Source: Trichococcus pasteurii
GTDB lineage: Bacteria > Bacillota > Bacilli > Lactobacillales > Aerococcaceae
Direction of reading: 5' to 3'
DNA: 64,000 nt
NCBI RefSeq assembly: GCF_900112935.1
Contig: NZ_FONM01000002.1
Coordinates: 310,001-374,000, forward strand
The translations under genes and the position numbers were made by a program. The notes under the pieces are model-generated. The model did no database searches and was not told where the DNA came from. It worked only from the letters and a program-made list of their open reading frames with translations. Shown piece by piece: positions 53,197 to 58,065 of this stretch. Within the stretch, counting starts at the first letter, position 1. Each line of letters starts with the position of its first letter.

Positions 53197-53673
53197 TTAA
53201 ACGATGTTAGGATAGATATCTTTCACATTTTTTTCCGGATCGATTACGATATATAATTTGTTTTCGGATGAAACGAAAGAAGATTGGTGTTCATTGTCGA
53301 ATCCGTCGGTGTCCGTAGCTTTATATGGGAAGTAGATGCGGTCCACTTCCACAATGACGTCGGATTTTGGGTGATCTTCATCTTGGTAAAGGATATCCAT
53401 TTTTTCGATGTCTTGATGACTCGCAACGCGCTCGAACATGCCTTGTTCAAGTCCGCCCAGATTGATGTCGCTCGTATTGACGTGATCCGCTTCTTGGTTA
53501 ATTTCGATACGCAAAGATTCGCAAGGGTGGATTTCTTGGAAATCACTGTTTCCGATTCGGCCGTAGCTCGTTGTGACTTGTTTGATCCATAAATCTCCGA
53601 TAAATTCACGCCTGATCGTCCATGTTTCGCCGTTTCTGAAAATAAATCTCAAACCTGTCATTACTTTTTTCAT
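53197..53673 (-). CDS. Protein of unknown function, 158 residues
   Basis: I do not recognise a family. The protein is soluble, without signal peptide or membrane segment, and mildly acidic. It opens with basic, aromatic strands (MKKVMTGLRFIFRNGETWTIRREFIGDLWIKQVTTSYGRI) and continues with alternating hydrophobic strands; a second half has VIVEVDRIYFPYKA and LYIVIDPEKNVKDIYP. CAGGAG lies 8 bases before the ATG, and it has its own terminator, so it is a real gene. An extended -10 box (TGA-TAAAAT, 53715-53720) lies upstream. It stands alone between dinG and cca; neighbours give no clue. Confidence 0.75.
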   Translation of the reverse strand: MKKVMTGLRFIFRNGETWTIRREFIGDLWIKQVTTSYGRIGNSDFQEIHPCESLRIEINQEADHVNTSDINLGGLEQGMFERVASHQDIEKMDILYQDEDHPKSDVIVEVDRIYFPYKATDTDGFDNEHQSSFVSSENKLYIVIDPEKNVKDIYPNIV

Positions 53674-53784
53674 CGAAATCACTCCTGATATATTTACTTT
53701 TTGAATATGTAACTATTTTATCATATTTTTTAAAAAGTGGGTACAAATACACTTGCGATGACGGAAAAAAAGTAAGTTGAGCTG

Positions 53785-55350
53785 CTAGAGACTGTCCATG
53801 AATGCATTTGCGTTGACGACGGCCCTTGTGTGCTTCGCCGAGGCGATTTCATGGCCTTGTGAATGGGCTGTGCATTCGAAGAAATATTTGTTTCCTCTGT
53901 GTTCCGTCACTCTGACCGTCACCGTTATTTCGGCGTGGATGGGAGAGGCTTTTTTATGATGCAGATCGCATTGTATCCCGACTGTCGTGTCGCCTTCGGA
54001 AAGATGTTCCTTGACGATCCCCATGCAGGCATTTTCGATCATGGCCAACAATGCCGGCGTTGCCAAAACCGGCAACGTTCCCGAACCGATTTCGGACGCC
54101 AAATCTTTTTGCCCGACGGTATAGGCGGCTTCGAATGTCTCATCCAAATAAATCATCCTTCTTTTCGTAATGAAATCCCTTAGTGCGAAGGGGCTATTCT
54201 CCAGTTTGTTTGCCAAAACCAGCGTTTTCAATTCTTCGAATATCTCGCCCACAAAAGGGCCGCCTCGTTGGATGCCCAGCAATGAAAGCAATTCTTTTCC
54301 GTCCAAGGCCAAATCTTTCAGCGTATGGATCGGCATGGATTCATTCAATTCGATCAGGTTTTCGCTCTGGTTCGGCAGGCCGAACCCTTCTATGATGGCT
54401 TCAATCTCCATGGCGATTTCGATCCCTGTTTCGAACAGAAGTGGGTAGTCCCAGAATTGCTGCAGGCGTTTGTTGAGGGCCTGAACGCCTATGCGTATGT
54501 CCATGATCTCCTTGCGGGAACACTTCCATTGGCGCAAAAACGGCTCGATCGCTTCATCCTTCAGATCCAGGAAATGGACCAACACAGTCCAAGCGATCGT
54601 CGTCCCTTTGAATTGCAGCGGAAACAGGGCCAAGTCGATCAATTCCTTTTCCCGGTTTTGCAAGCCGGGACACATCTGGAATAAACGTGTTTCGACAAAA
54701 AACTTGATTCCGCCCTTGCGGTTTCTTCCGATCAGAAGCTTATTCCACTCTTCGCGCACGCGTTCTACCGCGATCTTCGAAAGCAGCGGATGGTACTCGA
54801 TGATGGCCTCCTTCGTCGCTTGTTCGATTTCAAAATCCAACTGACTCACGAATCTGGCTGCGCGCATCATGCGCAAGGCATCTTCCCTGAAGCGTTCTTC
54901 CGGATTGCCGACTGCCCGGATCAATTTGTTCGCCAAGTCCTCCTGCCCGTTGAAGAAGTCTTTGATGTTCCCATGGCGGTCGATCGCAATCGCATTGATC
55001 GTAAAGTCGCGCCTTTTCAAGTCATCCTGCAGACTGCGCACATACTCGACTTTCTCCGGTCTGCGGAACTTTTCATACTTTGATTCTGTCCGGAAAGTTG
55101 TTATTTCGTATGTCTCACGCTCATGTAAGACCATCACCGTTCCATGTTGGATGCCCACATCAAAGGTGATCGGGAAGATCCGCTGAATTTCTTCAGGCAT
55201 AGCACTTGAGGCGATGTCGACATCCGAAATATCCAGATTCAGCAGCGTATCGCGCACACTTCCCCCAACAAAGTAGGCTTCATATCCAGCCCGTTCGATG
55301 GCTTCGATGATCGGTATCGCTTTTTGAAATTCCGGTGCGTTTATGATCAT
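53785..55350 (-). CDS. cca: CCA tRNA nucleotidyltransferase fused to an FlK-like hotdog thioesterase
   Basis: Residues 1-398 form a full-length CCA-adding enzyme: [24 protein letters not shown] (Gly-rich loop and DxD), [12 protein letters not shown], and [17 protein letters not shown]. Residues 399-521 form a complete hotdog domain like fluoroacetyl-CoA thioesterase Fl[15 protein letters not shown] and [10 protein letters not shown] give Thr431, Glu439 and His465 with the same spacing as FlK Thr42, Glu50, His76. There is no stop between them. The junction [14 protein letters not shown] looks like a former N-terminus, and AGAAGG with a TTG 8 bases on (residue 402) could start the second domain alone. 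The gene overlaps dapB by four bases. Confidence 0.9.
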
Positions 55351-56198: not shown

Positions 56199-56750
56199 TC
56201 AGATCATATTTTTTTCTTCCAACTCTTTTAATTCTTTCGTGAACTTCCTGAAGCTGTTTTCGTCGTATTGGATCAGCGCGATATCGATCTGTTTTTTCAG
56301 ATAATGGATGCGATCCTTAACCGCCAATTTTTCCAAGGACTTTTCTACTATTTCTTCCAGATCCTTATCGAAAATTTCGGATTCTTGGATGTACGGATTG
56401 TCCTCCAAAACGCCAAAAAATGAAAGGACTTGGTAGGATTGATCAAAGAATAACTCCAAATAAAAATCCTCTTTCCAATTCAACCGCAGATCATGGAATG
56501 CCTGTTCGGGATCCTCGAATGTCTTTCCGTCCTTGTAGTACATGAAGGCGTCTTTCGGATTTCCGACCACGGCAAATCCCATTCCTCTGTTCGTTGTATG
56601 GACTTCCTCAATCAGATGGATATTCTTCAATAAAATCTCATGATTAAGCAGATAATTGAGTATCCAAAGGGACTCTCTGCGCTTCAATTGATAATTCTGA
56701 ATAAACCAAGAAATAAAATTTTTTTTCTCCTCCAAAGTAGGATTCATCAT
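56199..56750 (-). CDS. ypiB: YpiB/UPF0302 family protein
   Basis: A 183-residue cytoplasmic protein. It matches the YpiB (UPF0302) family: EEKKNFISWFIQNYQLKRRESLWILNYLLNHEILLKNIHLIEE in the N-terminal helical part, and a C-terminal coiled segment KDRIHYLKKQIDIALIQYDENSFRKFTKELKELEEK. The function is not established. The ATG at 56750 has AGGAGG 7 bases upstream; a longer in-frame version overlaps ypiA and is rejected. The order ypiA-ypiB is that of Bacillus. Confidence 0.88.
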   Translation of the reverse strand: MMNPTLEEKKNFISWFIQNYQLKRRESLWILNYLLNHEILLKNIHLIEEVHTTNRGMGFAVVGNPKDAFMYYKDGKTFEDPEQAFHDLRLNWKEDFYLELFFDQSYQVLSFFGVLEDNPYIQESEIFDKDLEEIVEKSLEKLAVKDRIHYLKKQIDIALIQYDENSFRKFTKELKELEEKNMI

Positions 56751-56781
56751 TTTAAAACCTCCTATCCGATGGGATGATGAC

Positions 56782-58065
56782 TTATTGATCGAAATGATGC
56801 AGCTCATCATGGAGTTGAAGCAACTCAGTGTTGGCGGGATAAAGAGCCAAGCCTTGGTGGATGACCTCACTCAACTTTTCCCAGTTGCCTTCCTCTCTCA
56901 GGAATGATGCATACTCCAGTAAAAAGGACTCATTGTCGGCAAAATGCGGATAAGCCGCCTCATATTCTTTGTTTGCCGAATCATAGTCCTCCAAGGCATT
57001 ATGGCTGGCTGCAAGCAACCAATTGTATTGCGGATCGTTGTCTTCCTGTTCTGCCCGGTCAGCAATATAAGCAATCAATTCCTCGAACCTTCCTTGTTTC
57101 AGCAACAGGTTTCCCAAGGCCAAGTGGATACTGGAAAGGTCAGGTTCAAGCGCTGCCGCTTCACGCAAATTACTTTCCGCATCCTGCTCCCGGTTCAACT
57201 TCAATTGCAGTCTGGCCGCTGTCGTGTAAAATTCATGCTGATAAGGATTCCGCATGATGGCCTGTTCCATCACAGCAAGCGCTTCTTCCAACTCCAATTC
57301 AGCCTCAAGCGCATTTGCCAAGTACAAGTATGCGCTCAGGTAAGCATTGTCTGTTTCGAGCAATTTATTAAAAATGGTGATGGCCCGCGCATATTCCTTG
57401 AGTTGGAAATAAGTGAAGCCAAGTTGGAAATAACTGTCCGGGAAATGCTCATCCGCCGGGATTTTCTCCAGATACTGCAAGGCCGTCTCGAATTCGCCGA
57501 TCGCATTATGACAATCGCCCAGGAAAAAATTCAGCTGCGTTTCGGATGCGATTTCCCCGTTTCCGTATGCAAGTTCCTCATAGATCGGAATCGCCTTCTT
57601 GTATTCCCCGATCGAATGGTAAAGCTGCGCCAACGCGTAATCCAATATGGGTTCATCGGGCAAAAGCGCCATTGCTTCAAAGATTTTCTTTTCGCTGACT
57701 TCGTACAATCCTTGCACTTGATAAGCATCAGCCATCGTCAACAAAGCTTGAGGGTACACGTCACTTGCTTTATCAATCGTGAGTAGGATATCCAAAGCTT
57801 GATCGTAATCATCTTCATCAATGGCGATTTCTGCTAAAGCGATATTCCACTCCTGTATATGCGGCGCCAAGTAGTTCAACGCCCCAAATGCCTCTTTTGC
57901 TTCACTCAAAAAGCCCAAGGCATGCATCGTTTCTGCCAATTCGGCCAAATCAGCGCTGTTGTTCTCCAGGACGGATTGCTCAACTGATTGTTTGAACAGT
58001 TGGACAGCCGTATCCAAATCATTCTGTTGAATGGCTTCTATCATTGCCTGTGCTTCTTTATTCAT
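56782..58065 (-). CDS. ypiA: Tetratricopeptide repeat protein YpiA
   Basis: A 427-residue soluble protein made almost wholly of TPR repeats (about ten to twelve 34-residue units; examples are GEYKKAIPIYEELAYG, GEFETALQYLEKIP and KEYARAITIFNKLLETDNAYLSAYLYLANALE). It corresponds to YpiA, whose partner is unknown, and it is followed by ypiB after about 30 bases. AAGGAG lies 10 bases before the ATG. An extended -10 box TGA-TAAAAT lies at 58117-58122. Confidence 0.88.
   Translation of the reverse strand: MNKEAQAMIEAIQQNDLDTAVQLFKQSVEQSVLENNSADLAELAETMHALGFLSEAKEAFGALNYLAPHIQEWNIALAEIAIDEDDYDQALDILLTIDKASDVYPQALLTMADAYQVQGLYEVSEKKIFEAMALLPDEPILDYALAQLYHSIGEYKKAIPIYEELAYGNGEIASETQLNFFLGDCHNAIGEFETALQYLEKIPADEHFPDSYFQLGFTYFQLKEYARAITIFNKLLETDNAYLSAYLYLANALEAELELEEALAVMEQAIMRNPYQHEFYTTAARLQLKLNREQDAESNLREAAALEPDLSSIHLALGNLLLKQGRFEELIAYIADRAEQEDNDPQYNWLLAASHNALEDYDSANKEYEAAYPHFADNESFLLEYASFLREEGNWEKLSEVIHQGLALYPANTELLQLHDELHHFDQ

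Follow-up and report, generated by a model that had tools for sequence, protein, structure and literature searches.

What is the origin of a tRNA-maturing enzyme that carries a thioesterase-type domain at its C-terminus, and does the gene encoding it make one protein or two? The question is raised by one reading frame in a 64,000-nucleotide stretch of the Trichococcus pasteurii genome (contig NZ_FONM01000002.1, positions 310,001 to 374,000), hereafter the window, to which all coordinates below refer. We propose, with a probability of about 0.66, that this frame stems from a single ancient fusion of cca with flk, that its product would be a CCA-adding enzyme with a C-terminal hotdog of thioesterase type, and that the gene in Trichococcus would make both the fusion and a free hotdog. 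The features that bear on the domain make-up are as follows.

53785 to 55350, minus strand: the fused gene cca-flk, 521 amino acids, stop codon included, ATG start, one continuous frame in each of the 19 genomes of the two genera.
54157 to 55350, minus strand: the part for CCA tRNA nucleotidyltransferase, residues 1-398 (7-398 in the model match), with nucleotidyltransferase motifs.
53788 to 54117, minus strand: the FlK-type hotdog part, residues 412-521 (Pfam match 412-514), with Thr431, Glu439, His465, His507 and Arg509.

The gene is an in-frame fusion of two complete domains, a CCA enzyme followed by an FlK-type hotdog, as the original prediction had it. Translation of the frame meets no internal stop codon. 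The N-terminal half matches the full length of the NCBIfam model for CCA tRNA nucleotidyltransferase (NF009814/PRK13299) over residues 7-398 with 467.6 bits, above the curated cut-off of 290, and it contains the Pfam domains PolyA_pol (residues 25-145, 2.2e-38), PolyA_pol_RNAbd (172-230) and tRNA_NucTran2_2 (246-394, 3.3e-30). A PDB search with this half returns the CCA-adding enzyme 1miv at 2e-91. GGSVRD is found at position 29, DVD at 43, RRDFT at 113 and EDALRMMRA at 156, and we take the patterns GGxVRD, DxD, RRDFT and EDxLR to be nucleotidyltransferase motifs. The window protein thus shares with class II CCA enzymes (PRK13299, 1miv) the fully matched model and the motifs, and differs from them in bearing a C-terminal hotdog of about 120 residues. 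When the C-terminal residues are searched against hotdog models, residues 412-514 match the FlK family of Pfam (PF22636) over profile positions 1-102 of 103 at 1.8e-27, with 95.9 bits against a gathering cut-off of 27; the hotdog alone gave no match among the NCBIfam models. A profile search of the genome that holds the window finds cca once and FlK once, and the two matches lie inside the fused gene.

How widespread is the fusion? A survey of cca genes in 76 genomes of the family found it in 19, all in two genera: 13 of 13 Trichococcus (genus g1) and six of six Jeotgalibaca (genus g17). The remaining 57 genomes all carry unfused cca frames, of 401-455 residues. Outside the two genera, no FlK match within a frame longer than 460 residues was found in 395 genomes of the order, 398 of the class or 299 of the phylum, the lengths of cca frames across the order being those among the matches listed; one weak FlK match (G849, 38.6 bits) falls just under this limit, in a frame of 457 residues. 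None of the 13 Trichococcus genomes, two of which are incomplete, gave a second FlK match. A search of named genomes with the junction motif returned ten loci, eight of them titled Trichococcus, one Jeotgalibaca caeni and one Sedimentibacter sp. SX930. The record with the last of these titles (L063, MUZD01000002.1) holds a locus of Trichococcus type and is probably mislabelled. An origin in a phage or plasmid was rejected: viral contigs gave no relative, and no place in the plasmid records covers 80% of the protein.

Trees of the two halves point to one event. The fused hotdogs form one clade with support of 99/94, present in 100% of 200 bootstrap trees; this tree is built on 125 columns and sets the fused rows on one side of a branch, with no placement relative to the hotdogs of the neighbour pairs described below. 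In a quick tree the fused CCA halves likewise form one clade (SH-aLRT 100). Their closest relatives are the CCA enzymes of genus g14 (support 97), in which zero of seven genomes have an FlK match, followed by family f2 and two rows of family f6 in an open fork. For trees and alignment, loci that recur within a genome were left out, which reduced 32 neighbour loci to 30. Two independent fusions were considered and rejected, as both half-trees give a single fused clade. The simplest account is a single fusion in an ancestor that the two genera share.

What preceded the fusion is suggested by other families of the order, in which flk is a separate gene. Among the matches listed, an FlK match separate from cca is found in 68 of 117 genomes of families f2, f3 and f8 (18, 70 and 29 genomes, respectively). 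Of these 68, again among the matches listed, 66 have the flk gene immediately after cca and in the same orientation (26/26 in f8, 35/36 in f3 and 5/6 in f2). The count takes one FlK match per genome and leaves out the second matches of G122, G206, G230 and G248 as well as 17 fused copies. In families f1 (unfused copies), f4 and f6, flk was found directly behind cca in none of 38 genomes with an FlK match; one of these genomes (G228) is without a cca match, and many are draft assemblies in which cca and flk fall on separate contigs. Outside the order 119 genomes of the class have an FlK match, and the 11 checked are all non-neighbours.

We read 32 pair loci, from 30 genomes or records, in full. 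Both genes are on the same strand in every case, and the gap between them, measured from the start of the longest frame, is -8 to +19 bases in 27 of the 32. Seven loci show an overlap of -4, and five of these seven read ATGA or GTGA. For example, in Enterococcus gallinarum NZ_CP116511.1 cca is followed after 19 bases by a gene of 121 residues that matches FlK at 1.9e-21. This E. gallinarum gene (L138, 5211-5576) is annotated as hypothetical protein WP_003126836.1 and is absent from the tblastn list obtained with the window hotdog. In two E. faecium records no flk stands behind cca. Separately, we note that E. faecium records NZ_CP092374.1 and NZ_LR135312.1 (L136, L137) carry a housekeeping cca neighbourhood (TPR gene, cca) beside ISEfa5 on what are called plasmids.

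The pairs can be tied to the fused locus by the gene that follows it.

53197 to 53682, minus strand: the conserved downstream gene, 161 amino acids, which serves as synteny anchor.

Its product has no match in Pfam, and a homologue with 54-71% identity stands behind the separate cca-flk pair in 28 of the 32 loci, directly in 27, in three families. Since a homologous gene follows both the pair and the fusion, this is one locus, with two genes there and one gene in the window. The separate pair, of which E. gallinarum is an example, accordingly shares order, strand and (in 28/32) downstream gene with the fused locus, and differs in consisting of two genes that overlap or nearly touch. The neighbourhood of cca and flk is old and would predate the fusion; the direction, from pair to fusion, is the one that we infer. 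We propose that an overlapping or abutting cca-flk pair would have fused once, in the ancestor of Trichococcus and Jeotgalibaca.

If flk was once a gene of its own, is its start still there? The original prediction had described the junction as resembling a former N-terminus and had pointed to a possible internal start, and two features of the junction agree with it.

54157 to 54162, minus strand: AGAAGG, a Shine-Dalgarno-like sequence read as Arg397-Arg398, putatively the former ribosome-binding site of flk, either a relic or still active.
54145 to 54147, minus strand: TTG402, candidate internal start of a putative free hotdog of 120 residues, 9 bases after AGAAGG.

The spacing had been given as 8 bases and is in fact 9 (54162-54157 versus 54147-54145). 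AGAAGG or AGGAGA stands 9 bases ahead of TTG402 in all 13 Trichococcus, and a similar site is found in three of the six Jeotgalibaca; every other place in the fused gene with a Shine-Dalgarno sequence and a start occurs in at most two of the 19 rows. The distance from TTG402 to the GSG of the hotdog is 20 residues, and separate neighbour genes begin 17-22 residues before GSG in 27 of 32 loci. The separate hotdog of locus L038, for instance, begins MDQTFAKEYTV, which can be set against 11 residues at the window junction. Likewise, KRRMI are the last residues before the stop of the separate cca of locus L045, where AGGAGA is present and an ATG overlaps, and T. palustris has AGGAGA at the equivalent place inside its fused frame. 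We favour the reading that the junctional KRR is the translation of what used to be the ribosome-binding site.

Synonymous change at the junction is suppressed in Trichococcus. Across 12 Trichococcus, codons 396-405 form the window of lowest synonymous divergence among 510 (0.051 against a median of 0.369), level with the true start of the fused gene at 0.053. Of 20,000 sets of 11 codons drawn at random, one reaches a value as low as that of the junction, in a test that treats codons as independent and compares related genomes. When the set is thinned to seven Trichococcus the junction ranks fourth, with 4/20,000 sets as low, and with T. palustris added (13 Trichococcus) it ranks 6 of 510, with 26/20,000. 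Among eight neighbour genes, 19 of 2,512 internal windows are relatively as low, 12 of them in the nearly invariant hup, five in p161b and two in p223, and the true starts of dinG, dapB and hup show little synonymous suppression. Within the fused gene, AT content peaks in the junction windows. RNA folding at the junction is ordinary (z 0.05), and a promoter and terminator scan gave counts below the shuffle means. As a separate observation, the 223-residue frame at 56199-56870 of the window seems to have its listed start too far upstream; synonymous change is low near its residues 43-57, which is where a protein like the 183-residue frame of L048 beginning MRRPTLEEKK would start.

We propose that selection apparently still acts in Trichococcus on the signals from which flk was once translated (AGAAGG-N9-TTG402), so that the gene would most likely give two proteins, the 521-residue fusion and, on its own, a hotdog of about 120 residues. 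TTG is a weak start codon. On the present comparisons internal initiation at TTG402 in Trichococcus is likely. The long product would add CCA to tRNA. Hotdogs of FlK type act as dimers; the partner of a free hotdog could be another free copy or the fused domain, and a hotdog dimer could join two CCA enzymes.

The strongest rival to this account is a plain fusion with a single product, in which the stop between the neighbours was lost, the two enzymes work independently, and the codons resembling a Shine-Dalgarno sequence are either the remnant of a site in decay or conserved for the sake of the peptide KRRMIYLDE. KRR-IYLDE is indeed conserved as a peptide in most rows of both genera, and adjacency and synteny elsewhere can account for the fusion without any functional tie. 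In the six Jeotgalibaca, moreover, the junction is without synonymous suppression (rank 219 of 510, 9,582/20,000 sets as low), with changes there near saturation; two of the six lack a start codon at residue 402, and one has ATG there at a distance of 12 bases from AGAAGG. What decides us against a single product in Trichococcus is that conservation of the protein leaves the near-zero synonymous change at codons 396-406 (12 Trichococcus) unexplained, and that both junction Arg codons are AGA or AGG in 13 of 13 Trichococcus whereas CGN is the commoner choice at the gene's remaining Arg codons (277 versus 107, 12 genomes). We regard the plain fusion as possible and clearly the less probable of the two.

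What would the hotdog do? FlK residues Thr42, Glu50 and His76 align with Thr431, Glu439 and His465 in the alignment to FlK structures of the PDB (match about 2e-7); the triad, which the original prediction had placed at these residues, is thereby confirmed against solved FlK. In an alignment of 69 hotdogs (19 fused, 30 from neighbour pairs and 20 from elsewhere), position 431 is Thr or Ser in all rows (59 Thr, 10 Ser), Glu439 is present in 69/69 and His465 in 68/69, and His507 and Arg509 are each conserved in 69/69. An AF2 model places hotdog residues 431-520 at pLDDT 83-94 in blocks of ten; built on 11 sequences and with the CCA half mostly at low confidence, the model informs the hotdog and not the placement of the halves. 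The first ten PDB fold matches of the modeled hotdog are chains of TM0581 and FlK, with TM-scores of 0.81-0.85 by target length and rmsd of 1.2-1.8. Profile, fold, Thr/Glu/His triad, His507 and Arg509 are common to the window hotdog, FlK (PF22636; 3kv7, 3p3f) and TM0581-like hotdogs (2q78). The window hotdog differs from FlK in being the C-terminal part of a tRNA enzyme, in an identity of about 24%, and in Thr425 at the place of Phe36. The last assignment comes from ungapped extension, as the profile alignments begin at FlK residue 38. F36A mutants of FlK are named in PDB titles, and we take Phe36 to be a lid residue. Because Phe36 by this extension falls on Thr425, a position with Phe in none of 19 fused rows and in one of 30 neighbour-pair rows, fluoroacetyl-CoA would be an unlikely substrate of the fused hotdog. 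In either form, fused or free, the hotdog would most likely cleave an ordinary acyl-CoA or acyl-thioester.

Both halves are under strong purifying selection in Trichococcus: across the 55 pairs that 11 genomes give, dN/dS is 0.070 in the hotdog and 0.038 in the CCA part. In Jeotgalibaca the hotdog has diverged in part. GSG and triad are intact in 13/13 Trichococcus and in 3/6 Jeotgalibaca, the latter with Ser for Thr. The fused hotdogs of the other three (G050, G052 and G051; loci L046-L048) lack GSG and have DFT, EDF and ELG instead, and that of G050 has Tyr in place of His465. The loss of GSG falls in exactly those three of the six Jeotgalibaca that have a second, separate FlK, and two of the three have also lost the start codon at 402. 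Judging from the Jeotgalibaca case, a separate gene may be able to take over the enzyme function. Neighbours of the separate Jeotgalibaca FlK genes, read by eye, indicate no pathway.

These divergent hotdogs bear on a second rival, according to which the hotdog is mainly structural, a dimerisation or tRNA-handling appendage of the CCA enzyme whose catalysis is secondary or lost. G050 keeps its hotdog in frame in spite of Tyr for His and the missing GSG, as do its two GSG-less relatives with a separate FlK, and the ratio of hotdog dN to CCA dN is 1.5-3.5 in pairs with these three against 1.0-1.65 among the other three Jeotgalibaca. However, fast hotdogs with an intact triad occur elsewhere too (4.6 for the window against T. 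ilyis-type L014; 1.7 and 2.4 in T. palustris pairs), and hotdog speed alone therefore proves little. The three GSG-less Jeotgalibaca form one clade and hence represent one event, while triad and GSG persist in every Trichococcus and in half of Jeotgalibaca, and the lack of a second FlK in the 13 Trichococcus genomes (two incomplete) would fit a needed enzyme. A mainly structural hotdog is in our view unlikely.

Could the fusion reflect chemistry shared with tRNA? In one such scenario the hotdog would serve outside CoA metabolism, hydrolyzing esters or thioesters located at the tRNA 3' end or close to it (those of wrongly acylated or blocked tRNA, say, or acyl thioesters that would modify the tRNA). 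Fusion in two genera and a conserved gene pair, often with overlap, in three other families would keep it beside the CCA enzyme, and the internal start would supply a free copy. A functional tie of tRNA 3'-end maturation to thioester hydrolysis is not supported, the conserved pairing with cca being its sole hint, and adjacency and synteny elsewhere can by themselves explain a fusion; we give this scenario little credence, less than the structural one. Under the preferred reading of one ancient fusion with two products in Trichococcus, the tie to tRNA maturation would be one of co-expression, perhaps with dimerisation of the CCA enzyme, rather than of shared chemistry. Finally, an artefact of sequencing or assembly or a local frame error, for which one might cite that the genome holding the window is a draft of 46 contigs, is refuted by a frame that is intact in 19/19 genomes of two genera (of which four are listed as one contig each) and by purifying selection on the hotdog; neither a break at the junction nor relatives that always keep the two genes apart, the grounds on which the original prediction would have been abandoned, is what the genomes contain.

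How does the fused gene compare with known systems? The CCA-adding enzymes of gamma-proteobacteria carry an extra HD hydrolase domain. They resemble the window protein in having a hydrolase on the C-terminal side of the CCA enzyme and differ in that the HD phosphohydrolase is of an unrelated fold; to our knowledge no internal start has been described in CCA-HD enzymes. Bacterial genes with in-frame internal starts, which yield two products from two ribosome-binding sites, include those for IF2, CheA and ClpB. The arrangement that we propose for cca-flk is similar in that one frame would give two products, and different in that the inner start would be that of a once separate gene. Both domains of the window protein belong to known families. 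The fusion and the cca-flk pairing are apparently new, no report of either having been found in the open-access full-text literature, judged by titles; in the main text of the Trichococcus genome paper (PMC6950789), the terms thioesterase, nucleotidyltransferase, fluoroacetyl and CCA occur zero times.

With these results the FlK-like hotdogs of these bacteria gain a definite genomic partner, cca, which they accompany in three families of Lactobacillales and to which they were apparently joined once. If the internal start is true, a ribosome-binding site would survive inside the fused gene, read there as KRR, and one frame would make two products.
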